Under the pieces are notes generated by a model, which saw nothing but the letters and a program-made list of their open reading frames with translations, was not told the DNA's origin and made no database searches. 64,000 nucleotides of DNA from Apibacter raozihei. Lineage in GTDB: Bacteria > Bacteroidota > Bacteroidia > Flavobacteriales > Weeksellaceae. A program made the position numbers and the translations under genes. Shown here piece by piece: positions 1 through 14,475 of this stretch. Within the stretch, counting starts at the first letter, position 1; every line of letters begins with the position of its first letter. The stretch lies in assembly GCF_004014855.1 (NCBI RefSeq), contig NZ_CP034930.1, positions 2,461,716 to 2,525,715 on the forward strand, given 5' to 3'.

Positions 1-1
1 A

Positions 2-547
2 TTAGCGTCTCAATCTCCGAGAAGAAAGGAATTATTAAAAAGTCTTGGATATGAATTTGATACCATTAGTTTAAATATAGATGAATCTTATCCTGGAAAT
101 TTGAAAGCCGGAGAAATAACCGAATATTTAGCATATAATAAGTCAAAGAGTTATGGGGAAATTCCGGAAAAGACAATACTGATTACAGCTGATACCATTG
201 TATGGTACAACAATAAAGCATTAGAAAAACCCAATAATTCATTAGAGGCCGAAAATATGTTGAAAAGTCTATCAGGTCATTCTCATGAAGTTTTTACCTC
301 TGTTGGATTTAGTACTAAAGATAACTACAAAGTTTTTACTGACTCTGCCAGGGTGCATTTTTTAAAACTTGATAAAGAAGAAATTAATTATTATGTTAAT
401 AACTTTAATCCAATGGACAAAGCTGGCTCTTATGGTATACAGGATTGGATAGGTTTATCAAAAATTGAAAAAATTGAAGGTTCATACTTTACCATTATGG
501 GGTTTCCTACACATTTAGTTTATAATTACTTAAAATCTTTTGAATAA
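2..547 (+). CDS. maf: Maf-family nucleotide pyrophosphatase, 5' truncated by window edge
   Basis: This is the Maf/YhdE family, house-cleaning pyrophosphatases that hydrolyse non-canonical nucleoside triphosphates such as dTTP/UTP or modified bases in the cytoplasm. Reading in frame from base 2 gives the family's N-terminal signature LASQSPRRKELL, so the gene starts just upstream of the window and only a few residues are missing. A TTG at 101 is an internal codon, not the start. Further Maf hallmarks are ITADTIVW (the catalytic Asp region), DKAGSYGIQ and IEGSYFTIMGFPT near the C-terminus. About 181 residues are visible, close to the usual 190 or so. The next gene starts 9 bases downstream, suggesting an operon. 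Confidence 0.93.
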   Translation, partial: LASQSPRRKELLKSLGYEFDTISLNIDESYPGNLKAGEITEYLAYNKSKSYGEIPEKTILITADTIVWYNNKALEKPNNSLEAENMLKSLSGHSHEVFTSVGFSTKDNYKVFTDSARVHFLKLDKEEINYYVNNFNPMDKAGSYGIQDWIGLSKIEKIEGSYFTIMGFPTHLVYNYLKSFE

Positions 548-556
548 ATTTTAGCA

Positions 557-1324
557 ATGAAATTAATTGAAAATATTGGAGATGTATTTAATTGTAATTC
601 AGCAAAACTCTCTGATAAAATTTTAATAAATTATATAAACCGATTATCAGAAATAGGTTTTTTTGCTATTGATTTAGGATCGTTTGTTTTAAATAATACA
701 ATGTTATTGAAAAAAACAGATGGTTTTATAAATTCAATAGATAAAGCCAAGACTAAAATATATATAAGAGTTTCGGATGAAAAAAACTTTTTTAAAGCTT
801 TAGATATTGATAATATTGATTTTATAGAAATTTCTTCGAATTTGATTTATTTAGTTGAAAATTTAAATTCATTACATAAAGAAAAAATTGTAGTAAGAAT
901 AAATATTGATTTTTCAAACGGTGAGCTTATAATTTTAAATCAAATAGATACAGAAATAGATGTTCTGTATAATAACAAAATTTACGCTGTTAAATTTAGT
1001 AATGAAAATTCTTTATTAGATTTAGATATAGTAAAAAATGTTTTTGATTTCTGTGATAAAAATTTTCCTGGATTGTCTTCAGGAGGACATTTTTATCTAA
1101 ACAATGACATGGTAATTAAAGAATTATTCATGCTCATGAATTCATCGAAGTGTAAATTCCTGGAGGTAAGTACTAATGGTCGAGTCAGCAACAATTTTGG
1201 TTTCTTACCCCCGACCGAAAAAATACTAACATTTTTAGCGGATAAAAATACTAATTTCAAGTTTAATATGTTAAGTTTTGAATCGTCATACAATGAAGCC
1301 AAAAAAATATTTTCAAGGTCTTAG
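557..1324 (+). CDS. Degenerate HMG-CoA-lyase-like protein (probable pseudoenzyme)
   Basis: The 255-residue protein resembles flavobacterial hydroxymethylglutaryl-CoA lyase-like TIM barrels. The segment INRLSEIGFFAIDLGSFV (about residues 27-44) matches the first strands, PPTEKILTFL matches the family's PTEKL segment, and the C-terminus NMLSFESSYNEAKKIF is typical. The catalytic parts look lost. The RDG(L/M)Q motif expected near residue 8 reads NIGDVFN, the metal-binding HLH reads HFY (in GGHFYL), and the loop that should carry the active-site Cys reads NGRVSN. It is also shorter than active lyases (about 285-300). Spacing to maf is 9 bases. Family assignment is by motif memory and the loss of activity is inference. 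Confidence 0.6.
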   Translation: MKLIENIGDVFNCNSAKLSDKILINYINRLSEIGFFAIDLGSFVLNNTMLLKKTDGFINSIDKAKTKIYIRVSDEKNFFKALDIDNIDFIEISSNLIYLVENLNSLHKEKIVVRINIDFSNGELIILNQIDTEIDVLYNNKIYAVKFSNENSLLDLDIVKNVFDFCDKNFPGLSSGGHFYLNNDMVIKELFMLMNSSKCKFLEVSTNGRVSNNFGFLPPTEKILTFLADKNTNFKFNMLSFESSYNEAKKIFSRS

Positions 1325-1333
1325 GAGTTTCTC

Positions 1334-1341
1334 TATTTTTG
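1334..1341 (+). promoter_or_regulatory. Putative -7 promoter element (TATTTTTG)
   Basis: TATTTTTG fits the Bacteroidota sigma-ABfr -7 consensus TAnnTTTG. It lies 19 bases before the ATG at 1360, and this spacing recurs upstream of several other genes in the window. No convincing -33 TTTG is seen. It supports 1360, not the earlier TTG at 1339, as the start of the next gene. Confidence 0.45.
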
Positions 1342-1359
1342 TATAAAAATAATAATAAA

Positions 1360-3225
1360 ATGAAAAAAATATTTTTTTCAATTTTTGTTTTATTGTATGG
1401 GATCTCAATGTATTCTCAAGCTGTTTTGATGAAAATCAACAGTGATACTATTTTTACAAAAGATTTTGAAATTCAACAACAAAAAAGTTTAAAATTAATA
1501 GGTGTTCAGCAAACCATTAATAATTACATTGATTTTAATTTACTTAAACAATATGCTTTATCATACAAAGTAGATAAATCAGAAATGTATGAAAGACTTT
1601 TAATAAAAGAAGGCGAAAAATTGAAAGATAGTCTTTATTACAGAAAAGATTTAATTGAACCTTTACTACAAGATTATTATCAAAAGATTATTAAAGACAG
1701 GAAAATTCAAATTCTGTTTTTTGAAGACAATTTTTTATCCTCACATGGAAAAAACCGAAAAAAGTTTGTTCAGGACTTAATAAAAAATATTAATAATAAT
1801 ACAACCAAATTTAGTGAAGCCGTTGAAAAGTATTCAATTTTGCTTAATTTTAAAATTCCAGCATATTATGACCTCTTTATATTAAATAAATCTTTGGTTA
1901 ATGAAATTTATAAAGCTCCTTTAAACAAGGTGTATGAAGTAAATCAAGATCAAGGTAATTACTTGATTTTAGTTTCTGAAGAAAGAAATTATTTAGGTGA
2001 ATTAGAATTAAAGGAATACAGAATAAAAAATAATTCACCTTCTAGCAAAAATATTGCTGATTTAATATACGATGATTTAAAAAATAATAAAAGTGTAGAT
2101 AATATTCTGAAAAATAATGATTCAATTTTGTTTTTCCATGATATAAAACTAAAAGTTATTAATAACGATGATTTATACAATCAGGTTTTAAATAATAGTT
2201 CAGCAGTTTTAAAGCCTATTCGTACAGATAGTTGTTACTCTGTCTATGTGGTAAAAGACAGAATTCAATATGATCAATATTCTAAAGTCAGAAAAAGACT
2301 ATACAACAGATTGTTACAATCTAATATGGTTGGAGATTTAAATTTGAATCTTATAAATGAATTAAAAAATAAAGTTTCTTTTAAAGAAGATGAAGATGAA
2401 ATTAAACTTTTTAAACAAAATTTACCTAAAAATTATAATGATTTTAAAAATTTCACTCTTTCAGACACAAAAACTTTAGTTAATATTGGAAATGGTGAAT
2501 ATTTGTATACTAATCAAGACTTGCTTAATATACTTAAACAGAATATTACTGATAAAAATATTAATGAAGTAGAAAATTTAATCAATATTTATATTAATTC
2601 TTGGGAAAATACATATTTAGTTCAATATTACGATATTTTTTATTTTGAACTTGATAGATATAAAGAGGAATGGAAAAAATTGAATGATAAACTCTTGATC
2701 AATGCAGCCATATCAATAATCACAGATAAAGCTATAAATGATACAGAAGGTCAAAAAAAGTATTTGAAAGAAAATCAGCAACAGTTTATTTGGAAAGAAA
2801 GAATCAATGGTGACTTTTACTATTGTTTAAATAATGAAGTTAAAAATAAAGTTTTAGAATTACTAAACGATAAAAAATCTGTTGAAGAAATAAAATTATT
2901 GTATAAAGATAAGGTAAACGCTCAAAATGAACCTTTGCTGATAATTAATCAAGGGAAATTAACTAGAGAATCTTTGAATTTGCCTAATGATATCAAACTC
3001 GATAAAAAAGTTTACACAACAGACTATAAAACTAAAAAATTAGTTATTAATATTAAAGATATTAAAAATAATGATCCTATGGATTTGGAAGAATTTAGAA
3101 CAAATTATATAGATTTATACATTGATTTTAAAATGGATCAGGAAATAAAAAAATTGAAAAGTAAAGCTAAAATTGAAATTGTACCTTCACAAGAAAAAGA
3201 ATTGGAGTCTAAATACTCAAAATAA
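1360..3225 (+). CDS. Large SurA-like periplasmic folding factor (divergent PpiC protein)
   Basis: A 621-residue exported protein beginning MKKIFFSIFVLLYG with a Sec signal peptide ending near residue 20 (MYSQ/A). The ATG at 1360 is preferred because the longer reading from TTG at 1339 puts a charged Asn/Lys stretch before the signal peptide and would start inside a -7 element. The mature N-terminus (VLMKINSDTIFTKDFEIQQ) resembles SurA N-domains. The rest is helical, Lys/Asn-rich and lacks an obvious parvulin active site. Flavobacteria commonly carry such a long divergent PpiC-like protein directly upstream of the canonical SurA, as here (61-base gap). A role in outer-membrane protein folding is inferred from this context. 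Confidence 0.65.
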   Translation: MKKIFFSIFVLLYGISMYSQAVLMKINSDTIFTKDFEIQQQKSLKLIGVQQTINNYIDFNLLKQYALSYKVDKSEMYERLLIKEGEKLKDSLYYRKDLIEPLLQDYYQKIIKDRKIQILFFEDNFLSSHGKNRKKFVQDLIKNINNNTTKFSEAVEKYSILLNFKIPAYYDLFILNKSLVNEIYKAPLNKVYEVNQDQGNYLILVSEERNYLGELELKEYRIKNNSPSSKNIADLIYDDLKNNKSVDNILKNNDSILFFHDIKLKVINNDDLYNQVLNNSSAVLKPIRTDSCYSVYVVKDRIQYDQYSKVRKRLYNRLLQSNMVGDLNLNLINELKNKVSFKEDEDEIKLFKQNLPKNYNDFKNFTLSDTKTLVNIGNGEYLYTNQDLLNILKQNITDKNINEVENLINIYINSWENTYLVQYYDIFYFELDRYKEEWKKLNDKLLINAAISIITDKAINDTEGQKKYLKENQQQFIWKERINGDFYYCLNNEVKNKVLELLNDKKSVEEIKLLYKDKVNAQNEPLLIINQGKLTRESLNLPNDIKLDKKVYTTDYKTKKLVINIKDIKNNDPMDLEEFRTNYIDLYIDFKMDQEIKKLKSKAKIEIVPSQEKELESKYSK

Positions 3226-3286
3226 ACAGGTAACAATATTTTAAGAACAGTAATAAAAATTAAATTATAGAAATAGAAAGACAGAA

Positions 3287-4627
3287 ATGAATAAATTATT
3301 TATAACGCTCATGTTTTTTTCGTTCACATTATTGACTTTTGGTCAGGAGAAGAAAATTGACGGAATTGTAGCAGTAGTCGGTGATGAAATCATTACAGAA
3401 TCAGACATTAATGATGCTGAAAATTATGCTCGTTCAGAAGGGCAAATAGTTTCAGACAAATGTAATTTTGTTGAAACCATGATGAAAGAAAAAATCATTC
3501 TTTATAAAGCGAAACAAGACACATTGGTAACAGTAGGTAAAGATGAAGTTTCCAGAGAAGCCGATTCTCGTTTAGATGGTTATAGGAATTATTTCGGATC
3601 CGATGAAAATGTTTTAAAGAATTTCAAGTTTAAAACCATGGGAGAATTAAGAAATGTTTTGGAAACCATGATAAAAAATCAAATGTATACTCAGAGAAAA
3701 ATGATGAGTATTACTAAAAATGTGGATGTTTCACCCGAATATCTTAAGAAATTTTATAATTCACATGAATCTGAATTTCCTAACCTAAATGAAGAAATTG
3801 AATATGCACAAATTTTTTTATATCCTGAACTATCAGAAACGCATAAGCAGCAATTAATTGATCAGCTTAAAGGTATCAAGAAACAGATACAGGAAGGTGC
3901 CAGTTTTTCTGATATGGCTAAAAAATATTCTCAGGATCCGGGTTCAGCAGAAAGTGGTGGACTTATAACCAACGTTAAAAGAGGACAAATGGTTAAAGAA
4001 TTTGATGCTGTAGCTTTTAGTCTGGATGAAGGACAGATTTCGGATCCGTTTGAAACAGAATATGGTTATCATATAGTGTATCTGGAAAAGAAAAAAGGGC
4101 AAGTACTTAACCTAAGACATATCTTGCTTATGGCAGTTCCTGATAAAGATGAAATCAGAGAGGCTACAAAGAAATTAGAACAGATTAAATCAGATATTAA
4201 AGCAGGTAAACTAACTTTTAGTGAAGCGGCTTTAAAGTACTCTAATGATAGATATACAAAATATAATGGAGGTGTATTGTCTAATCAACAGACGGGCGAT
4301 AATAGATTTGAGAAAATTAAGTTACCTACTAAAATATTATATAATTTGTCAGGATTAGTTAAAGGGGATGTTTCTGAAGTATTTGAAGATACAGATAATA
4401 ATAGAACAGTAGTTAAATTATTAAAAATTACAGACGTTATACCTCCTCATAAAATGAATTTGGATATAGATTATAATAGAATTAAAAACTTTGCTCAAAA
4501 GACCAAAGAAAATGAAATAGTAGAGAAATGGGTTGAAAATCAAATACCAACCACTTTTATAACTATTCAGGATCAATATAAAAAATGTAAATTTTCTTTA
4601 AATTGGTTGCAAACAAATAAAAAATAA
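3287..4627 (+). CDS. surA: SurA-type peptidylprolyl isomerase with two parvulin domains
   Basis: Periplasmic chaperone/prolyl isomerase of 446 residues that escorts unfolded outer-membrane proteins to the BAM machinery. A signal peptide covers about residues 1-19 (ending TFGQ). The SurA N-domain follows (IDGIVAVVGDEIITESDI). Two PpiC rotamase domains lie at about 170-272 (ASFSDMAKKYSQDPGSAESGG) and 273-385 (LNLRHILL with FSEAALKYSND). The first keeps the typical GG and F-x-YGYHIV features; the second is less conserved. It is the second gene of a probable operon with the divergent PpiC protein and is followed by a strong hairpin terminator. Confidence 0.9.
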   Translation: MNKLFITLMFFSFTLLTFGQEKKIDGIVAVVGDEIITESDINDAENYARSEGQIVSDKCNFVETMMKEKIILYKAKQDTLVTVGKDEVSREADSRLDGYRNYFGSDENVLKNFKFKTMGELRNVLETMIKNQMYTQRKMMSITKNVDVSPEYLKKFYNSHESEFPNLNEEIEYAQIFLYPELSETHKQQLIDQLKGIKKQIQEGASFSDMAKKYSQDPGSAESGGLITNVKRGQMVKEFDAVAFSLDEGQISDPFETEYGYHIVYLEKKKGQVLNLRHILLMAVPDKDEIREATKKLEQIKSDIKAGKLTFSEAALKYSNDRYTKYNGGVLSNQQTGDNRFEKIKLPTKILYNLSGLVKGDVSEVFEDTDNNRTVVKLLKITDVIPPHKMNLDIDYNRIKNFAQKTKENEIVEKWVENQIPTTFITIQDQYKKCKFSLNWLQTNKK

Positions 4628-4651
4628 TATTAAATATACATTATTGTAGTT

Positions 4652-4681
4652 AAAAGTCTGTGTAATCACAGACTTTTTTTG
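4652..4681 (+). terminator. Rho-independent terminator after surA
   Basis: A 7-bp GC-containing stem, GTCTGTG (4656-4662) with CACAGAC (4667-4673), closes a TAAT loop. Flanking A and T runs extend the stem, and seven T follow. It sits 25 bases after the surA stop codon. Confidence 0.85.
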
Positions 4682-4754
4682 TGTAAAAAATAATTTTGTA
4701 TATTAATATGATATATAGCATTCGTTTAATTTTTATTTTATGAAATAAAATATA

Positions 4755-4762
4755 TAATTTTG
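4755..4762 (+). promoter_or_regulatory. Putative -7 promoter element (TAATTTTG)
   Basis: Matches TAnnTTTG and lies 27 bases before the ATG at 4789, downstream of the surA terminator, so a new transcription unit is expected here. Confidence 0.5.
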
Positions 4763-4788
4763 TATATTGAATTTTAAAATTAAACTAT

Positions 4789-6729
4789 ATGAAAAATTAT
4801 TTTCTGTTTTTATTAGTGTTCTTAAACCTGTGGCAGGTAAAAGGACAAAATTCTTCAACAAAAGAAATTTTAAAATTAGAATTTCGAAGTGGTGACAGTA
4901 AATCCTATTACAACGGTATTAAAATTGGAGAATATTACTGGATGGATAACAATTTTTATGAACCTGTAAATACCGATTACGTAACGGATGAATTAATTCA
5001 TAAACACATGGATCTTTGGGGGGTACCTTATAATGTTTCAGCAAAAGATTTCAATAGATACTTTGGACAATATTATGGAAATGGAGGATTACCAACCGGA
5101 GTAATGTATGAAAATGATAAAATTTCAACAGTTTGGGGATTACCACGAAGAGCTGATTTTTATCAATTGTTGGGAATGTGTGGTACGGGATCCTATACAG
5201 ATATTAAAGAATATTTAGGAGCTAAAACCAACGATAATCCAGCAGCGGTTAATCTTATAGGAAGTGATGATTTAAACAATGGTTATTGGTTTGAACCCAA
5301 CAAAAACGTGTATGGTTTCAATTTAATGCCAGGGGGAGGTCGTATGAATGGACCTTGGAACAACTTAATTACAGGAGATTTTTATGCTTTATATAAATAC
5401 GCAACATTAAGAATTTATAAAGATAAGGAGGAATTGAATGAGCCAGCATTAGCTGCAACATTAGATAATTTAAATCAAAGTATTTCAGTAACATCTTCAT
5501 GGCATTGGCTTAATGTTAGGTTTTCTAAGAAAATTTCGGACGAAGAATTAGGTTATAAGCTTTATATAAAAGAAAGTGATTTTAAAAAATATGAAAAATC
5601 GAATATAATCGCAGGTTTTGACATAGCTTCTGTTGATATTAAAAAATTAGCATTAGATGATAAGATTCCAAATGGTTTTGTTGAACTACCTAAGGGGTGG
5701 ATTAGAGGGTTTTATGTTCAGAAATATGGTACAGATCCTGTAAAAAAATATCCAAAAATAACTTCTCATCTTCGGATAATAAAAGAGAATAATAAATATG
5801 TCTTTAAAGAGAAAGAACAAGTTATAATTTACTTAAGAACTGATGATTCGACTAATAATGACGTAAAGTTTGGATTATATAATCCTAAAGATGGTAATTT
5901 TCGAGGACCTTTAACTGTTCTTTCTAATGAAGGGTATCAGTATACTTGTCAGTTACCGGAAAATTATATTGGTAACTTCATGTTAATACCATATGTTGAA
6001 GATAAAAGTGTGAAGAAAGTATTAGAAAGAGAGACAGACAGCCCATGGATAGATAGATTACCTTTAACAATTGAATATAAAGCAAATCGCAGATATGTAG
6101 CAGATACAGAGTTTAAAACCACCAATTACATGCAATTAAACATCAAAGAAAACGGAGTTAGCTTTATAAATAAGCTATTCCAGACCGAAATGGAAAAAAA
6201 CTTTATAGTTTCAATGCCTACCAGTAATCAGGAAAAAACTAAAATAGGATTATTTTACTCCAATGGGGATTTTTGTACAGATATAACTCTTTCTCGAAAG
6301 AATTCATTATATAATTGTAGTATTCCCAATTCAGTTCAGGGAGGAGATTATATCATCATGCCCTATGTCAATGATAATGAAATTAAAGTAATTGAAAGAA
6401 AAGAGGGAGGATATTATATGGATAGATTGCCTTTAACAGTTATTGAAGAAGATATTTGGGGAGATATAGATTGGAACAGTAGAACTCTAATGGTTCAGAC
6501 TGAAGAAACTTTGAAACCTTATGTAAAAGATAATAACCTATATATAAAAGGGTTAAATATTCCTTCAGAAATCACTTTATATACTATGAGCGGAAATATT
6601 ACCACCATTCAAAAAAATGTAACCCAACAACAAGCAATTCCGGTTCATAACCTTAAATCTGGAGTTTATATACTTCAAATAAAAAACGATCAGGGAAAAA
6701 TATCAAAATTAAAATTTATCAAAGAATAA
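4789..6729 (+). CDS. T9SS-secreted protein with FISUMP-like N-domain and two internal repeats
   Basis: A 646-residue exported protein of unknown specific function. Residues 1-19 are a signal peptide (ending KGQ). Residues of about 25-210 (KIGEYYWMDNN, RADFYQLLGMCG, NVYGFNLMPGGGRMNGPW, TGDFYALYKYATL) resemble the FISUMP/major-paralogous surface domain. Two related modules follow. The first has VKFGLYNPKDGNF, FMLIPYVED and WIDRLPLTIEY; the second has TKIGLFYSNGDF, YIIMPYVND and YMDRLPLTVIE. The last 50 or so residues (LYTMSGNITTIQKN, LKSGVYILQIKNDQGK, KLKFIKE) form a type A T9SS sorting domain. It is monocistronic between two terminators. Surface or secreted location is a firm inference; the ligand or activity is unknown. 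Confidence 0.75.
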   Translation: MKNYFLFLLVFLNLWQVKGQNSSTKEILKLEFRSGDSKSYYNGIKIGEYYWMDNNFYEPVNTDYVTDELIHKHMDLWGVPYNVSAKDFNRYFGQYYGNGGLPTGVMYENDKISTVWGLPRRADFYQLLGMCGTGSYTDIKEYLGAKTNDNPAAVNLIGSDDLNNGYWFEPNKNVYGFNLMPGGGRMNGPWNNLITGDFYALYKYATLRIYKDKEELNEPALAATLDNLNQSISVTSSWHWLNVRFSKKISDEELGYKLYIKESDFKKYEKSNIIAGFDIASVDIKKLALDDKIPNGFVELPKGWIRGFYVQKYGTDPVKKYPKITSHLRIIKENNKYVFKEKEQVIIYLRTDDSTNNDVKFGLYNPKDGNFRGPLTVLSNEGYQYTCQLPENYIGNFMLIPYVEDKSVKKVLERETDSPWIDRLPLTIEYKANRRYVADTEFKTTNYMQLNIKENGVSFINKLFQTEMEKNFIVSMPTSNQEKTKIGLFYSNGDFCTDITLSRKNSLYNCSIPNSVQGGDYIIMPYVNDNEIKVIERKEGGYYMDRLPLTVIEEDIWGDIDWNSRTLMVQTEETLKPYVKDNNLYIKGLNIPSEITLYTMSGNITTIQKNVTQQQAIPVHNLKSGVYILQIKNDQGKISKLKFIKE

Positions 6730-6750
6730 ATAAACATAATTTTGTGACGA

Positions 6751-6781
6751 AAAGGTTATCCAACTTGGATAACCTTTTTTT
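6751..6781 (+). terminator. Rho-independent terminator
   Basis: The 8-bp stem GGTTATCC (6754-6761) and GGATAACC (6767-6774) has a 5-base loop, preceded by three A and followed by a T run. It ends the T9SS protein transcript. Confidence 0.85.
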
Positions 6782-6808
6782 ATTAGTAATAATCTTAACA
6801 CTTTTACC

Positions 6809-6816
6809 TATTTTTG
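6809..6816 (+). promoter_or_regulatory. Putative -7 promoter element (TATTTTTG)
   Basis: Matches TAnnTTTG and lies 19 bases before the ATG at 6835, immediately after a terminator. Confidence 0.5.
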
Positions 6817-6834
6817 CTACAGAAATACTAAATA

Positions 6835-8001
6835 ATGAATTTAAATCAGGAGTCATTTATAATACAGGCAAAAACTTTTTTTGGACTTGAAGATATCCTT
6901 GTGCAGGAGCTAAAAGAATTAGGTGCATCTAAAATAATAAGTAAAAACAGGGCAGTAGAATTTTATGGAGATTTAGGATTTTTGTATAAAGCTAACTATT
7001 CTCTGAGAACAGCTTTGAAAATATTAGTACCTATTTATTCTTTTCAAGCAAAAGATGAAAAAATATTTGAAAGAGAACTTCAAAAATTTCAATGGGATAA
7101 ATATTTGTATAATAATCAGACATTTGCAATAGATTCAACGGTATATTCAGAGTATTTTACGCACTCACAATATGCCTCATTAAAAATGAAAGATGCAATA
7201 GTAGACAGTTTTAGAAAAAAATTTGGAAAAAGACCAGATGTTGACACTAAAAATCCCGATATCAAGTTTCATTTACATATCAGTAATGATCAGGTAACAG
7301 TATCATTAGATAGTAGTGGAGATCCATTATTTAAAAGAGGTTACAGAAAAGCAAATTTTGAAGCTCCTATAAATGAGGTTCTTGCTTCCGGATTATTATC
7401 ATTAGCTGGTTGGGATGGAAAAGGTAATTATTTAGATCCTATGTGTGGTTCAGGAACTTTGCTAATAGAAGCAGCTATGAGAGCTATGAATATACCCCCG
7501 CAGTTACATAGAACTAAATTTGGATTTATGAACTGGGCTAATTTTGATCTCGAATTATTTAATAAAATTAAAGAAACCAGACTTAATCGTATCAAACCAT
7601 TTTCCGGGAAAATAGTAGGGTATGATATTTCTGAAAAAGCAATACAAACTGCTCAAACTAATATTGACGCTGCAGATTTAACAGAATTTATAGAAATAAA
7701 AAAACAGAATTTTTTTGATTCTAAAAAAGAACTCTTCCCGGTTTTATTAGTTTTTAATCCACCCTATGATGAAAGAATATCCATTGATGATAATGAATTT
7801 TATAAAAAAATAGGAGATACTTTAAAAAGTAATTATAAAAATACACTTTCCTGGTTTATAACAGCAGATTTGGAAGCTTTTAAAAAAGTAGGTTTAAGAC
7901 CTTCCAGAAAGATAAAGTTATTTAATGGTAAACTGGAATGTAGATTTTTTCAATATGATATTTATGAAGGAACAAAAAAAGCAAATAAATTAATAAGTTA
8001 A
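6835..8001 (+). CDS. THUMP-domain 23S rRNA guanine-N2 methyltransferase (RlmL N-half type)
   Basis: A SAM-dependent RNA methyltransferase of 388 residues, the stand-alone form corresponding to the RlmL/YcbY N-terminal half that makes m2G in 23S rRNA. A ferredoxin-like/THUMP region spans about residues 10-160 (FFGLEDILVQELKELG, then FHLHISNDQVTVSLDSSGDPL). The Rossmann methyltransferase follows with LDPMCGSGTLLIEAA (motif I, about 200-214) and the target-base motif FNPPYDERI (NPPY at 308-311). Length and motif order are normal for the Bacteroidota orthologue. It is preceded by its own putative promoter. The exact rRNA position is inferred from the family. Confidence 0.88.
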   Translation: MNLNQESFIIQAKTFFGLEDILVQELKELGASKIISKNRAVEFYGDLGFLYKANYSLRTALKILVPIYSFQAKDEKIFERELQKFQWDKYLYNNQTFAIDSTVYSEYFTHSQYASLKMKDAIVDSFRKKFGKRPDVDTKNPDIKFHLHISNDQVTVSLDSSGDPLFKRGYRKANFEAPINEVLASGLLSLAGWDGKGNYLDPMCGSGTLLIEAAMRAMNIPPQLHRTKFGFMNWANFDLELFNKIKETRLNRIKPFSGKIVGYDISEKAIQTAQTNIDAADLTEFIEIKKQNFFDSKKELFPVLLVFNPPYDERISIDDNEFYKKIGDTLKSNYKNTLSWFITADLEAFKKVGLRPSRKIKLFNGKLECRFFQYDIYEGTKKANKLIS

Positions 8002-8050
8002 AAAAAATACAAAAAATCTTTATACTATTTAATAAATCTTTAAAACATGT

Positions 8051-8058
8051 TATATTTG
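8051..8058 (+). promoter_or_regulatory. Putative -7 promoter element (TATATTTG)
   Basis: Fits TAnnTTTG, 62 bases before the ATG at 8120. The longer spacing than elsewhere would leave a leader of roughly 55 bases. Confidence 0.4.
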
Positions 8059-8119
8059 CAACTGTTATAATAATGCTTTTTATTAGTGCTTTATAAAAAT
8101 TAGTAAATTTTAATTAATA

Positions 8120-9079
8120 ATGAAAGTAACCTTAATCTCTTTAGATTATTATGGGTACGATAAATATATCGTTTCAGCAATGAAAGAGTTAGGTATTGAT
8201 GCCTATCATATAGACATATATGAAAATCGATATAAATATCCAAACCTATGGGATAGGTTTAAAAATTTAATTAATAAGACTTTTTTTAAGTCTAATATCA
8301 AGAGGTATCACTTATATCAGTTCATTAAAAATGAATTGACTCATATAGGTAAACAGGATAAAATTATAATCATACATGCAGAATGGTTATCTCCTGAAAC
8401 ACTTTCATTATGTAAATCTAAAAGTAATCAAATGATAGCTTATCATTATGATGGAGTACAAAGAATGCCGGCGATTACTAACACCTTTAATTATTTTGAT
8501 AAAATTTACACTTACGATAAAAGCGATGCAAAAAAATATAATTTAGAATTTATTCCTAACTATATTTACGAATTAAAGGAAAAAAAGATTAATCAGACTA
8601 GAAAAGCATTTAATATTTCATCATTAGATAATAGGACTCCAATTTTGGAAAAAATAGCTTCTGTTTTAGACGAAAAAAATTTTTCATATGAATTTTTAGT
8701 AGTTAATAGAAGGCAAGTTAATCTTTACAGACCGCATATTCGTACTAAAATTAAATATTTAAACCGCATGGTTTCCAGAGATACTGTTTTAGAAAAAATT
8801 GATACTTCAAGTATCATGATTGATATACAGCGACCTGAGCAAGTTGGTTTAACATTCAGAGTATTTGAATCTCTAGGTTACCACAAAAAGTTGATAACAA
8901 CAAACAAAGATATTGTCAATTATGATTTTTATGATTCTAACAATATCTTACTTATAGATCCTGAAAATATTGTAATTCCCGATGAATTTCTAAATTCTGA
9001 TTACAAAGATTTACCGGATGATATATTACAAAAATACAGTACTAAAAATTGGGTTAAGAAAATTTTAGACCTGGTTTAG
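8120..9079 (+). CDS. Putative glycosyltransferase / LPS-core biosynthesis-like protein
   Basis: A 319-residue cytoplasmic protein with a GT-B-like layout. It has an N-terminal Rossmann start (KVTLISLDYYGYDKYIVSAMKELG), a central segment (KIIIIHAEWLSPETL, MIAYHYDGVQRMP, FDKIYTYDKSDAKKYNLEFIPN) and a C-terminal half (SSIMIDIQRPEQVGLTFRVFESLGYHKKLITTN). This resembles CgeB/LPS-core type transferases found in Weeksellaceae, where RPEQVGLTFR-type motifs precede a conserved E. No signal peptide or TM segment is seen. It stands alone between the methyltransferase and rimO, away from the glycan cluster at 42-46 kb. Donor and acceptor cannot be read from the sequence. Confidence 0.6.
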   Translation: MKVTLISLDYYGYDKYIVSAMKELGIDAYHIDIYENRYKYPNLWDRFKNLINKTFFKSNIKRYHLYQFIKNELTHIGKQDKIIIIHAEWLSPETLSLCKSKSNQMIAYHYDGVQRMPAITNTFNYFDKIYTYDKSDAKKYNLEFIPNYIYELKEKKINQTRKAFNISSLDNRTPILEKIASVLDEKNFSYEFLVVNRRQVNLYRPHIRTKIKYLNRMVSRDTVLEKIDTSSIMIDIQRPEQVGLTFRVFESLGYHKKLITTNKDIVNYDFYDSNNILLIDPENIVIPDEFLNSDYKDLPDDILQKYSTKNWVKKILDLV

Positions 9080-9122
9080 TATTTTATCTACCATTTATTT
9101 TTTATATCTTCTCAAGACATCT

Positions 9123-9130
9123 TACATTTG
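9123..9130 (+). promoter_or_regulatory. Putative -7 promoter element (TACATTTG)
   Basis: Matches TAnnTTTG and lies 19 bases before the rimO ATG at 9149. Confidence 0.5.
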
Positions 9131-9148
9131 CAAACTTAAAAGTAACTT

Positions 9149-10450
9149 ATGCGTACTAAATCGGTTGGAAAAAAGAAAATCAATGTAATAACATTAGGTT
9201 GTTCAAAAAATGTATATGATTCAGAAGTCCTGATGAGTCAGCTTAAAGCTAATGGAAAAGAAGTAGTTCACGAAAAAAAAGGAGACATTGTAGTAATTAA
9301 TACTTGCGGATTTATCGATAATGCAAAAGAAGAAAGTATATCCACTATTTTAGATTACGTTGAGCAAAAAGAACAAGGTAAAGTTGATAAAGTATTTGTT
9401 ACCGGATGTTTATCCGAACGATATAAACCGGATTTAGAAAAAGAAATTCCTAATGTAGATCAGTACTTTGGAACCAGAGATTTACCACTTTTATTAAAAG
9501 CGTTAGGGGCTGATTATAAGCATGAGCTGGTGGGTGAACGTTTAGTTACCACTCCTAGACATTTTGCTTATCTGAAAATTTCAGAAGGATGCGACAGACC
9601 TTGTAGCTTTTGTGCAATTCCCTTAATGCGGGGCGGACATATTTCAACACCCATCGAAGAACTGGTAAAAGAAGCAAAATTGTTGGTTAAAGGCGGAACC
9701 CGTGAACTGATACTGATAGCTCAGGATTTAACTTATTATGGGTTAGATATTTATAAAAAAAGAGCTTTGGCTGATTTATTAAATGAATTGGTGAAAATTG
9801 ATGGATTAGAATGGATAAGACTTCACTATGCTTTTCCTACAGGTTTTCCTCAGGATGTTCTTGATATCATGAAAGAACAGCCTAAAATTTGTAATTACTT
9901 AGATATTCCCCTTCAACATATTTCTGACGATATATTAAAATCAATGAAAAGAGGGACAACGAAAGAAAAAACGAATAGACTCATCAATGATTTTAGAGCT
10001 AAAGTTCCTGATATGGCCATTAGAACTACTTTAATAGTCGGATATCCGGGAGAGAGCAGAGAGCATTTTGAGGAATTAAAAGAATGGGTTGCACAGCAAA
10101 GATTTGACAGACTTGGTTGTTTTACTTATTCTCATGAAGAAAATACAACCGCTTTTAAATTAGATGATACAGTTTCTGAAGAAGAAAAGCAAGAAAGGGT
10201 TAATGAAATTATGGAAATACAATCCAAGATTTCCTGGGAATTAAATCAAGAAAAAATAGGAAATACTTACAAATGTATAATTGATAGAAAAGAAGGGGAT
10301 TATTTTATAGGAAGAACTGAATATGATTCTCCTGACGTTGATAATGAAGTTTTGGTTCCTGCGGAATCTACCTATTTATCGATAGGTAGTTTCGTTAATG
10401 TTAAAATTGTTAGAGCTGAAGATTTTGATTTATACGGAGAAGTTATTTAA
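9149..10450 (+). CDS. rimO: Ribosomal protein S12 methylthiotransferase RimO
   Basis: A radical SAM enzyme of 433 residues that adds a methylthio group to the conserved Asp of ribosomal protein uS12. The N-terminal UPF0004 domain carries three cluster cysteines at C18 (TLGCSKN), C53 (NTCGF) and C87 (TGCLSE). The radical SAM Cx3Cx2C motif is EGCDRPCSFCAIP (C148, C152, C155), followed by a C-terminal TRAM domain (about 370-433). Motifs IRLHYAFP, DIPLQH and TLIVGYPGE distinguish RimO from MiaB. Length is normal. The start at 9149 fits the promoter spacing, and a bidirectional hairpin follows. Confidence 0.96.
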   Translation: MRTKSVGKKKINVITLGCSKNVYDSEVLMSQLKANGKEVVHEKKGDIVVINTCGFIDNAKEESISTILDYVEQKEQGKVDKVFVTGCLSERYKPDLEKEIPNVDQYFGTRDLPLLLKALGADYKHELVGERLVTTPRHFAYLKISEGCDRPCSFCAIPLMRGGHISTPIEELVKEAKLLVKGGTRELILIAQDLTYYGLDIYKKRALADLLNELVKIDGLEWIRLHYAFPTGFPQDVLDIMKEQPKICNYLDIPLQHISDDILKSMKRGTTKEKTNRLINDFRAKVPDMAIRTTLIVGYPGESREHFEELKEWVAQQRFDRLGCFTYSHEENTTAFKLDDTVSEEEKQERVNEIMEIQSKISWELNQEKIGNTYKCIIDRKEGDYFIGRTEYDSPDVDNEVLVPAESTYLSIGSFVNVKIVRAEDFDLYGEVI

Positions 10451-10486
10451 TTTGAAATAAAGAATCTAAATATTATATATATGAAA

Positions 10487-10510
10487 AAACTCCGGAAATT
10501 TCCGGAGTTT
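10487..10510. terminator. Bidirectional terminator between rimO and rlpA
   Basis: A perfect 24-base palindrome whose arms are AAACTCCGGAAA and TTTCCGGAGTTT, with A and T runs at both ends. It separates the converging genes rimO (+) and the RlpA-like gene (-), so it probably works in both directions. Confidence 0.85.
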
Positions 10511-10534
10511 TACATATAATATTACTTTTAATTT

Positions 10535-11023
10535 TTATAAAACTTCATAAGTTACATTTAACACACCAGCATTAAGACTAGTTAATTCAGCAAAAGCAGC
10601 TTTACTTAAATCAAAAACTCTTTTAGGAACAAAAGGTCCTCTATCTGTAATTCTAACAATTACCTCTTTACCGTTTTTAGGATTTCTTATTTTAACTTTA
10701 GTACCAAAAGGTAAAGTTTTATGTGCGGCAGTATATTCATTCATATCATATTTTTCACCGCTGGAAGTTTTTCTTCCATGAAATCTGTCCCCATACCAAG
10801 AAACTCTCCCTGATAAAGAAAGTTCTACAGCTTCTTCTTCAATACTTTTAATAATTTCTTTAGTTAAAGTATCATTTGTAATAGAGTCAAATTGTAAAGT
10901 ATCTCCTTTTACTAAATTATGCTTAGAATGTTCGGTAATATGATCTGTTTCAGTATCATTAATTTGCATTGCTGTAAAAGAAAGAGACATTAATAAGACT
11001 ACTGCTAATGTTACTCTTTTCAT
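10535..11023 (-). CDS. rlpA: RlpA-like septal/cell-wall protein (double-psi beta-barrel)
   Basis: A 162-residue exported protein with a signal peptide (MKRVTLAVVLLMSLSFTAM), a spacer of about 50 residues, and an RlpA double-psi beta-barrel at about 70-162. The barrel shows GRVSWYGDRFHGRKTSSGEKYD, LPFGTKVKIRNPKNGK and VRITDRGPFVPKRVFDLSKAA. RlpA proteins bind or cleave denuded peptidoglycan at septa. The catalytic-type Asp of RITDRGPF is present, but there is no SPOR domain, as is usual for short Bacteroidota members, so lytic activity is uncertain. It converges on rimO across a shared terminator. Confidence 0.88.
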   Translation of the reverse strand: MKRVTLAVVLLMSLSFTAMQINDTETDHITEHSKHNLVKGDTLQFDSITNDTLTKEIIKSIEEEAVELSLSGRVSWYGDRFHGRKTSSGEKYDMNEYTAAHKTLPFGTKVKIRNPKNGKEVIVRITDRGPFVPKRVFDLSKAAFAELTSLNAGVLNVTYEVL

Positions 11024-11306
11024 AAATTGTTTTTTTGTTTCATTTGCTGGGCAAAATTACAATTGGCAAAAATTAAAAAGTGTTAAAATATTTATTTAGA
11101 CTTGAAATCACATATAAAAGACCGCCAATTATCAGTAGACAAAGGAAAATTCATGCATTGTTAAAAAAATGTTAAATAAACTTCAATATGTTAATTTTTT
11201 TAGCGTTTTAATATCATTATATTGTTAATATATTGTTATTCAGTGTTTTATATATATTGAGGTTTATGTGAAAAATTGTATTTTTGACTATTATAAAATG
11301 TTGACT

Positions 11307-11795
11307 ATGAATAAAGTTTTAATCATTTTGCTTATACCTTTAATATTTATGAGTTGTATTCAGGTTGAGCAAAGAAAAAATATAAAAAAAACAGAAGAAT
11401 ATTACAAAGTATTTTCAGAAGGAAAGAATATAGAACAATTTCTGGATTTTTATTCAGATTCAGATCCTATATGGAACGATGCCGTTTCACAATCTTCATA
11501 TAAAAATAAAGAAAACATAAAAAATAAGTGTCTTTCAATTTGGAATGATAAAGAGTACGAAGGTTCTAAAACAGTTTCTATAAATCAAATGCTTGCAAAT
11601 GACAGTATTGTTGTTGTAAATGGGCACTACAATTCTTATTATTACAATAATAGTAAATATGATAAAGTTCAGTTTACCGCTTGGTTATATTTTGACAAAA
11701 AAAATAAAATAAAAAAGCAAGTTGAGTGGATTCAATATCCATTTGAGGATCTACAATCAATTATTATTTTTAATCAAAACACGCAAATACAATAA
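11307..11795 (+). CDS. NTF2/SnoaL-like lipoprotein
   Basis: A small lipoprotein of about 162 residues. The reading frame is open from a GTG at 11268, but the lipoprotein signal starts cleanly at the ATG at 11307 (MNKVLIILLIPLIFMSC, lipobox FMSC), so that start is chosen. The mature part begins VEQRKNIKKTEEYYKVFSEGKNIEQFLDFYSD and ends WLYFDKKNKIKKQVEWIQYP, which fits the cone-shaped NTF2-like/SnoaL fold often annotated as nuclear transport factor 2 family. No catalytic residues can be assigned. It stands alone before alaS, with a 70-base gap. Confidence 0.65.
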   Translation: MNKVLIILLIPLIFMSCIQVEQRKNIKKTEEYYKVFSEGKNIEQFLDFYSDSDPIWNDAVSQSSYKNKENIKNKCLSIWNDKEYEGSKTVSINQMLANDSIVVVNGHYNSYYYNNSKYDKVQFTAWLYFDKKNKIKKQVEWIQYPFEDLQSIIIFNQNTQIQ

Positions 11796-11835
11796 TTTTA
11801 TTCGGATGTAATACTAACAATCCTCTTAAATTTAG

Positions 11836-11843
11836 TACTTTTG
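11836..11843 (+). promoter_or_regulatory. Putative -7 promoter element of alaS (TACTTTTG)
   Basis: Matches TAnnTTTG and lies 23 bases upstream of the alaS ATG. Confidence 0.5.
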
Positions 11844-11865
11844 TAAGCCAAAATTCAGTAGAGAT

Positions 11866-14475
11866 ATGACTTCACAGCAAATCAGACAAACATTTCTTGA
11901 TTTTTTTGAATCTAAAAAGCATACGATAGTTCCGTCTGCACCCATAGTTTTAAAAGATGATCCCACACTTATGTTTTCCAATTCAGGAATGACCCAGTTT
12001 AAAGACTTTTTTCTTGGATATAAAGAACCTAAAAGTGTCAGGGTGGCTGATACCCAAAAGTGTCTTCGGGTTTCCGGAAAACATAATGATTTGGATGACG
12101 TAGGTAAAGATACTTACCACCATACCATGTTTGAAATGTTGGGTAACTGGAGTTTTGGAGATTATTTCAAAAAAGAAGCAATTGACTGGGCTTGGGAGCT
12201 TTTAACCGAAGTATACAAAATACCTAAGGATTGTTTATATGTAACTATTTTTGAAGGAGATGCTAAGGAAGGGTTGACAAGTGATATGGAAGCCTTTAAC
12301 TACTGGAAGCAGCACATAGACGAAAATCGTATCTTATTAGGTAATAAAAAAGATAATTTTTGGGAAATGGGTGATACAGGACCTTGTGGTCCATGTTCTG
12401 AAATACATGTAGACATAAGATCGACCGATGAAAAAGCCAGTATTGATGGAAAAACATTGGTTAATCAGGATCACCCTCAGGTCATTGAAGTATGGAATCT
12501 TGTATTCATGGAATTTCTACGCAAAGCCGACGGAAGTTTAGAAAAATTACCTAAGCAAAATGTTGATACTGGAATGGGGTTTGAAAGACTGTGTATGGTA
12601 TTGCAAAATAAAACATCAAACTACGATACAGATGTATTTACGCCTTTAATTAAGCGTGTAGAAGAACTTACAGGGTACAAATATGGAAATAATACAGCTA
12701 CAGATATAGCTTTTAGAGTAGTTGTAGATCACGTAAGGGCAGTGGCATTTGCAATTGCAGATGGACAACTACCTTCCAATTCAGGAGCAGGTTATGTAAT
12801 CAGACGTATTTTGCGAAGAGCTACAGGATATGCATATAGATTACTTAATAAAAAAGAACCAGTTTTGTTTGAATTAATTTCAGTTCTTAAAAGTCAGATG
12901 GGGAAATTTTTCCCCGAAATAGACCAACAGGAAGAATTGATTACTGAAGTTATAAAAGAAGAAGAAACAGGCTTTTTAAGAACTATAGAACAAGGATTGG
13001 TAAGATTAGGATCTTTCATTGATTCGAACCCTGATTTAAAAGTTATACCTGGTGATGTAGTTTTTGAATTATATGATACTTATGGATTTCCTTCTGATTT
13101 GTCAAGAATTATTGCAGAGGAAAAAGGTTTATCAGTAGATGAACTAGGTTTTGAAGAGCATATGATTAAGCAAAAAGAAAGATCTAAATCTGCAAGTACA
13201 TTTAAAAATTATGACTGGGAAATATTAGAAGATGATTCTGAAGAAGAATTTGTAGGGTATGATTTTTTGGAAACACATGTTAAAATTACACGATTTAGAA
13301 AAGTTGAAAATAAAGACGGTGAGTTTTATCAGCTGGTTTTTCAGGTAACTCCTTTTTATGCTGAAAGTGGTGGACAGGTAGGAGATATAGGATATATAGA
13401 AAACCCAAATGAAAAGATTGAAATAATCAATACCCGAAAAGAAAATAATTTAATAGTTCATATTGTAAAAGAACTACCCAAATACCCTGAATTTCCTTTT
13501 AATGCAGTAGTTGATAAAAAAAGGAGAGAAGCTATAACAAAAAACCATTCAGCAACCCATTTATTGCATGAAGCTTTACGAGAAGTGCTGGGTACTCATG
13601 TTGAACAAAAAGGTTCGTATGTTGGACCTGAATATCTACGGTTTGATTTTTCTCATTTCAGTAAACTGACAAATGAAGAAATTTTTGAAGTTGAAAAAAA
13701 GGTGAACATGAAAATCTATGAAAGACTGGATTTGGATGAAAATCGTTCAGTACCTTTTAAAAAAGCTTTAGAAATGGGAGCAATGGCATTATTTGGTGAA
13801 AAATACGGAGATGTTGTCAGAGTTATCAAATTTGGAGAATCCGTAGAACTTTGCGGGGGTACTCATGTTAAAAATACTCAGGATATTATTTTCTTTAAAA
13901 TTATGAGTGAATCTTCAAGTTCTGCAGGAGTAAGAAGAATAGAAGCTATAACAGGAGAAGTTGGGATAAATTTCCTTAAAGAGCAGACAACTCAATTTTA
14001 TGAACTGCGAGCTTTATTAAAAAATACAGATGATCCGGTTAAATCAGTAGAGAAATTAATAAACGAAAACGAACAACTAAGAAAGCAGGCAGAGATATTA
14101 TTAAAAGAAAAAGCATTAAATGAAAAATCTAATTGGTTAAACTCAATAGTTGAAATAAATGGAATAAATTACTTAGGTTTAATTACAGATTTAAACAATG
14201 CAGCAATCAAAGACTTAGTGTTCCAATTAAAAAATGAAAAAGAAAATTTATTTATTATCATTGGTACAAAAACAGATGATAAACCAACAATTTCAGTAGG
14301 CATATCTGATGATTTGGTTGATAAAGGATTACATGCTGGAAAAATAGTTAAAGAACTTGCCCGTGAAATTAACGGAGGAGGAGGAGGACAACCTTCTTAT
14401 GCTACTGCCGGAGGTAGTAATACGTCAGGACTGGATAATGCCTTGCAAAAATCTAAGCAATGGCTTTCAAATTAA
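11866..14475 (+). CDS. alaS: Alanyl-tRNA synthetase
   Basis: Class II aminoacyl-tRNA synthetase of 869 residues that charges tRNA-Ala and edits mischarged Ser/Gly. The N-terminal catalytic core is complete ([72 protein letters not shown]). The editing domain keeps the zinc ligands HSATHLLH and CGGTHV. The C-terminal C-Ala domain ends in the glycine-rich [17 protein letters not shown]. Length is normal, with no disruption. A -7 element and a downstream terminator mark it as a single-gene transcript. Confidence 0.98.

Follow-up and report, generated by a model that had tools for sequence, protein, structure and literature searches.

The gene at 557–1324 (+) of the window, by which we mean the entire 64,000-nucleotide stretch of Apibacter raozihei DNA analyzed here, descends from a flavobacterial HMG-CoA lyase (HMGCL), encodes a protein that by its sequence is catalytically dead, and is under relaxed but real purifying selection. 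Probably, catalysis was lost from the HMGCL inherited by this lineage, in the simplest case ahead of the split among the four species carrying the gene, and the protein has been kept as a folded, non-catalytic barrel. Two further genera of the family also contain dead HMGCL genes. This recurrence is the most interesting part of the analysis, and was absent from the earlier account of the window made from its letters and reading frames (the sequence-only reading).

Descent and predicted fold

The open reading frame comprises 255 codons with no internal stop, ending in a TAG at 1322–1324. From the HMGCL loci found in this study, 22 intact flavobacterial proteins were hand-picked for a profile, which aligns with the window protein end to end, with an E-value of 2.4e-24 (72.6 bits for the whole protein, 62.0 bits for the best stretch, Z = 1), placing the homology beyond chance. 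Both the uninterrupted frame and the HMG-CoA-lyase-like character claimed in the sequence-only reading are thereby borne out. Its designation as an HMGCL-derived pseudoenzyme gene draws on the open frame, profile homology, active-site lesions, predicted barrel, and constrained relatives.

General searches returned little. The window protein has no Pfam match at E 1 or better, including to the HMGL-like family (PF00682), which scores the intact homolog of genome G036 at 70.7 bits, and two dead genes tested from a second genus (g29, see below) have no Pfam match either; such genes are easily overlooked. The NCBIfam match to HMGCL (E 0.07) is at chance level, a PDB sequence search gave a chance match only, and the window protein alone as query against the genome contigs found no relative. 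A four-row alignment run against the same contigs matched four loci in all, recovering three genus copies once more along with one intact HMGCL. Rfam has no match in positions 1–12,000 of the window, and a literature search, thin on subscription journals, found no HMGCL-derived dead gene in print.

An AlphaFold2 model computed from five alignment rows (mean pLDDT 79.7, pTM 0.81) predicts an HMGL-like (β/α)8 barrel with all eight strands. Confidence drops below a pLDDT of 50 only at residues 46–52 and 207–217, the latter corresponding to the former catalytic loop. Foldseek searches with the predicted fold highlight PDB entries 3bli (E 2.3e-8) and 1ydo (E 3.3e-8), and VIA gives Z scores, rmsd values and aligned lengths of 19.7, 3.0 and 233 for 4ov9; 19.1, 3.5 and 240 for 6nds; and 18.6, 3.8 and 241 for 1ydo. 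The nearest solved folds are HMGL-superfamily enzymes, many of which nearly tie in Z, so the fold does not single out the nearest enzyme. The window protein resembles HMGCL (EC 4.1.3.4; PDB entries 1ydo, 1ydn, 2cw6, and 6nds) in ancestry, whole-length alignment and predicted eight-stranded barrel, and both carry the conserved C-terminal motifs PTEK and ESxYN.

Loss of the active site

HMGCL coordinates its metal ion through Asp42, His233, His235, and Asn275 (human numbering), with Arg41 and Cys266 as catalytic residues, the latter in a GGCP loop. Aligning the window protein with 24 intact homologs reveals its lesions. Two of the four metal ligands are lost, with Tyr180 in place of His235 and Leu217 in place of Asn275, while Asp9 and His178 occupy the positions of Asp42 and His233. 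Neither catalytic residue of an active lyase is present: Arg41 is replaced by Gly8, and the loop with the Cys266 equivalent is deleted. Further departures from HMGCL are the replacement of Asp204 by Asn149 and of the Cys preceding the Pro-Arg pair by Asn6, and a deletion of approximately 19 residues between strands 4 and 5. At the Glu72 position the window protein has Asp39, the residue that the intact homologs have there too. Among the 22 intact homologs, 78 columns reach at least 95% conservation; the window protein retains only 26 of them, and its three relatives within the genus keep 27–29.

By its sequence, with these substitutions and deletions, the window protein is catalytically dead, and the pseudoenzyme assignment of the sequence-only reading stands with corrections. 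That reading held the RDG motif, the second metal His and the Cys loop all to be replaced, which is correct for the Arg, the second His, and the loop, but not for the Asp of the R-D pair (Asp9). It also understated the damage by omitting the Asp204 and Asn275 equivalents and the residues missing between strands 4 and 5. The surviving Asp9 and His178 are probably leftovers, since the relatives do not keep both.

Presence and loss in the genus

The genus (g1) was sampled by nine genomes, including that of the window (G000); three of the g1 relatives are MAGs. As none of 60 genomes passes the curated cut-off of the HMGCL family model, an E threshold was used instead. At 1e-50 or better, HMGCL is found in none of the nine genus genomes, compared with 26 of 28 from elsewhere in the family and 18 of 23 from elsewhere in the order; its absence is less sure in G006 and G001, which are 83% and 93% complete. 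Matches to the HMGCL model within the genus are mostly weaker ones to frames of approximately 500 residues, which are HMGL-superfamily synthases. The HMG-CoA synthase model matches in all nine genomes, and the genus therefore probably still makes HMG-CoA. Other genomes of the family and order without a strong HMGCL include G015, G044, G047, G051, G057, and G059; upstream of surA in G015 (L143), tblastn found no HMGCL relic.

A degenerate but open gene of 220–255 codons follows maf in four of the nine genomes (G000, G001, G005, and G006), the latter three encoding proteins 32–34% identical to the window protein. The other five (G002, G003, G004, G007, and G008) yielded no copy. The absence of an intact enzyme, with no strong match in any of the nine genomes, is thus shared by the genus, but the dead gene is not. 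With no other HMGCL found, the window gene would be the old HMGCL of the lineage rather than a side copy. All four copies share the changes Cys11-to-Asn, Gly99-to-Glu, and Asp231-to-Glu (L024 numbering), and all have lost Asp178 (L024 numbering) and the catalytic loop. The shared lesions suggest that inactivation, most simply, predates the split of the four species, in which case the divergence among the copies is that of an already dead gene.

Where the gene is missing, its surroundings vary. The foldase-like gene that lies next after the pseudoenzyme gene in G000, G001, and G006 comes directly after maf in G007 and G008 (the G005 locus ends at a contig edge beyond the degenerate gene). In G004, approximately 4.5 kb of other sequence separates maf from the foldase-like gene, and G003 has maf on one contig and the foldase genes on another. 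No maf or HMGCL-like gene was found in G002 (L111), which has a racemase-like gene between lpd and the foldase genes. Relics of the lost gene were sought in these five genomes, in the sequence preceding the foldase-like gene. Of 15 comparisons, 14 were negative (at least 17 of 300 shuffles); the remaining one, G007 against G001, was borderline (1 of 300 shuffles), and no relic is claimed. Deep nodes of the genus tree are too weak (support 40–71) for independent losses to be counted.

Genomic context

In the window the pseudoenzyme gene is preceded by maf (1–547, +; its first ∼17 bases precede the window), which ends 9 bases before the pseudoenzyme start. In the three other species (G001, G005, and G006) the start overlaps the maf stop, suggesting coupling with maf; the pseudoenzyme may be co-translated with Maf. 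Downstream lie a SurA/PpiC-like foldase-related gene (1339–3225, +), listed from a TTG as 628 codons but with a probable ATG start at 1360, and surA (3287–4627, +), encoding a PpiC-type peptidyl-prolyl isomerase of 446 residues. The sequence-only reading placed the gene between maf and a SurA pair; maf and the second gene, a clear PpiC/SurA rotamase, are as described, but the first gene has no Pfam match. It is related to a PpiC-like gene beside the HMGCL of another genus (28.6% identity over 182 residues, E 5e-13). The foldase-like gene evolves fast, the G000 product being 37–45% identical to those of seven other genus genomes, and the neighboring surA products are 69–83% identical. Farther downstream, 4789–6729 encodes a protein with a Por secretion tail (PF18962).

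Just past the pseudoenzyme stop, positions 1334–1341 (+) hold the promoter-like box TATTTTTG, which fits the Bacteroidetes −7 box TAnnTTTG. The box is present upstream of the foldase-like gene in all eight genus genomes that were aligned, including those in which the pseudoenzyme gene is lost, a count made without a chance control. It is possibly the foldase-like gene's own promoter.

Among 40 intact HMGCL loci, mostly examined with 1.5 kb flanks, surA or a PpiC-like gene is a neighbor in five (G017, G025, G028, G035, and G036). The other 35 have no foldase gene within the examined flank, so the link between HMGCL and foldase genes is not general, and a general HMGCL/foldase neighborhood was rejected as a rule. 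pepT is a neighbor in 19 loci, all within the family, which contributes 25 of the 40, and maf in none. The downstream neighbors of the window gene are hence common to some intact HMGCL copies, while maf upstream is particular to the genus.

Selection after inactivation

ω was estimated from pairwise GY94 codon maximum-likelihood fits; IQ-TREE codon runs gave no ω value, but rejected ω = 1. In the closest pair within the genus, G001 and G006 (147 of 249 residues identical; p12 0.249, p3 0.482), ω is 0.106, with a likelihood-ratio statistic (LRT) of 91.4 against ω = 1, and none of 2000 simulations under ω = 1 reaches the observed contrast. Synonymous sites are saturated in this pair (dS ∼3), as in pairs of the genus generally, making ω imprecise; with the dS of neighboring genes (maf 1.33, surA 1.48) it becomes approximately 0.22–0.24. 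Pairs with G000 or G005 have very large or unbounded dS, and their ω was not used. When sequences were evolved neutrally to about the same third-position distance, with base composition assumed, none of 300 frames stayed open and the mean number of stops was 15. For the g29 pair G079 and G093 (159 of 247 residues identical, dS 1.16), ω is 0.188 (LRT 57.2, 0 of 2000 simulations), or 0.24–0.73 with neighbors' dS (0.30–0.91). Altogether ω = 1 is rejected in four lesion-sharing pairs from two genera (LRT 47.7–91.4), pairs within a genus not being independent.

Constraint is relaxed relative to the neighbors. Between G001 and G006, dN is 0.323 for the pseudoenzyme gene, 0.138 for maf, 0.253 for the foldase-like gene (a small margin), and 0.092 for surA; between G079 and G093 it is 0.218 for the dead gene, 0.018 for pepT, 0.055 for PpiC1, and 0.006 for surA.

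An alternative, which we consider unlikely, is slow decay of a useless gene whose frame stays open only because breaks would disturb translation or transcription of maf or the foldase genes. The absence of a detected copy in five of the nine genus genomes, the fast change of the protein, and the start overlapping maf in three of four species are all in keeping with this. However, slow decay predicts ω near 1 with stops excluded, which is precisely the null of the codon model that is rejected above. The G007 and G008 genomes keep maf and the foldase genes without the pseudoenzyme gene, and the possible promoter box past the stop is retained where the gene is gone; if the downstream gene has its own promoter there, polarity is a weak reason for an open frame. 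None of the eight dead copies found has a stop, and ω is 0.11–0.19, unlike the pattern of a decaying pseudogene. Ordinary bacterial pseudogenes in reductive evolution likewise lose catalytic residues and are lost in relatives; the window gene differs in its frame, open over a large divergence, and in an ω well below 1. The suggestion of early decay in the sequence-only reading is therefore not supported, given lesions shared at 32–34% identity, no stops, and rejection of ω = 1. The dN/dS comparison it called for came out well below 1 in the closest pairs, if imprecise in value. Its other suggestion, a new non-catalytic role, has the support that sequence is able to give: the gene is dead by sequence, open in four diverged species, and constrained.

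Dead copies in other genera

The four-row alignment was used to search 296 family genomes, of which 286 matched. The four genus copies score below 1e-87 and intact-length homologs from 1.2e-34, with weak matches or none in a few genomes. Four of these weakly matched or unmatched genomes were re-examined, and G093 and G103 (g29) and G024 (g17) carry degenerate open genes. The fourth, G079 (g29), was missed by the search, and its degenerate gene was found with a g29 profile (E 1.1e-112); the profile matched none of 14 other genomes, and matched G036 through its intact gene. Like the search of the family, an order-wide one with an alignment of intact HMGCLs (186 of 246 genomes matched) is insensitive to dead copies. 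The eight dead copies in three genera are accordingly a lower bound.

Three of the four g29 genomes have a degenerate gene (L137:2749–3492, L138:2514–3254, and L142:2955–3698), and the fourth, G036, an intact HMGCL (L136:3945–4793) in a slot between pepT and two PpiC-like genes with surA. The dead genes of G079, G093, and G103 occupy this same slot, and share loss of the loop, loss of Arg41, and Glu for Asp204. The G024 gene (L139:4819–5331, −; 171–200 residues) lacks its middle and lies near pepT, with no foldase gene found nearby; it may be further gone than the other dead copies. All eight dead copies have lost the equivalents of Asp204 and Asn275 along with the second His. The catalytic Cys is lost in seven, G024 aligning a Cys-Pro there in a poorly aligned stretch, and Arg41 is lost in seven, being kept in G001.

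Dead HMGCL genes likely arose repeatedly, judging by gene slots and lesions. A single ancient pseudoenzyme, arising before the genera split and then kept or lost while other lineages retained the intact gene, seems improbable to us. A tree with one dead clade passes the AU test (p-AU 0.281), and the unconstrained tree search stopped at a tree no better in likelihood than this one. Against this, the best-likelihood tree unites the g29 dead genes with G036 (p-AU 0.723), by a difference of 4.6 that is not significant, the g29 slot is alike for the intact and dead genes, and loop deletions differ between genera. Furthermore, no intact HMGCL was found in any of the eight genomes that carry a dead copy.

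Possible functions

As a predicted barrel that is dead by sequence, the protein would act by binding, either as a scaffold or as a barrel for a small ligand or another protein. The job would be a weakly demanding one, because the protein changes faster than its neighbors and five of nine species yielded no copy; by the same absence, any role is dispensable. Some pseudoenzymes serve an active paralog as prozymes or allosteric partners. The window gene is like these in being dead by sequence and open under selection, but intact HMGCL was found in none of the nine genus genomes, where the approximately 500-residue HMGL-superfamily synthases remain, and regulation of an HMGCL partner is unlikely for that reason.

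Least probable in our view is a retooled enzyme, a barrel with a new active site for another reaction. Although ten derived positions are invariant in g1, among them Asn6 where strand 1 ends, Glu91 on strand 4, and Glu203 on strand 8, and ligands bind to this fold at its strand ends, shared ancestry of only four sequences explains much of this invariance, the derived residues are mostly absent from g29 (the Asn being shared only by G103), and of the four metal ligands only Asp9 and His178 are left, a pair that the relatives do not keep complete. More generally, the two lineages mostly differ in which residues have become newly conserved, which argues against one common new function.

The binding role would be a non-lyase job that was already present in the HMGCL barrel and carried over to the dead protein. 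Extending this to the family is more tentative, and we regard it as rather unlikely: HMGCL would have a hidden second, non-catalytic function, and would have been stripped repeatedly to a dead barrel that keeps this function alone, whenever the catabolic reaction became useless. Such stripping would have happened independently in two genera at the least, and probably in three, two of which have the dead gene beside envelope foldase genes. The linkage to foldase genes is one of position only, and does not extend to G024. Among kinases and phosphatases, selection is well known to maintain dead enzymes; to our knowledge, repeated origins of such proteins from a single metabolic enzyme have rarely been demonstrated. 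The g29 genomes, with an intact enzyme and its dead counterparts in one slot, make a non-catalytic job testable by gene deletion or swap.
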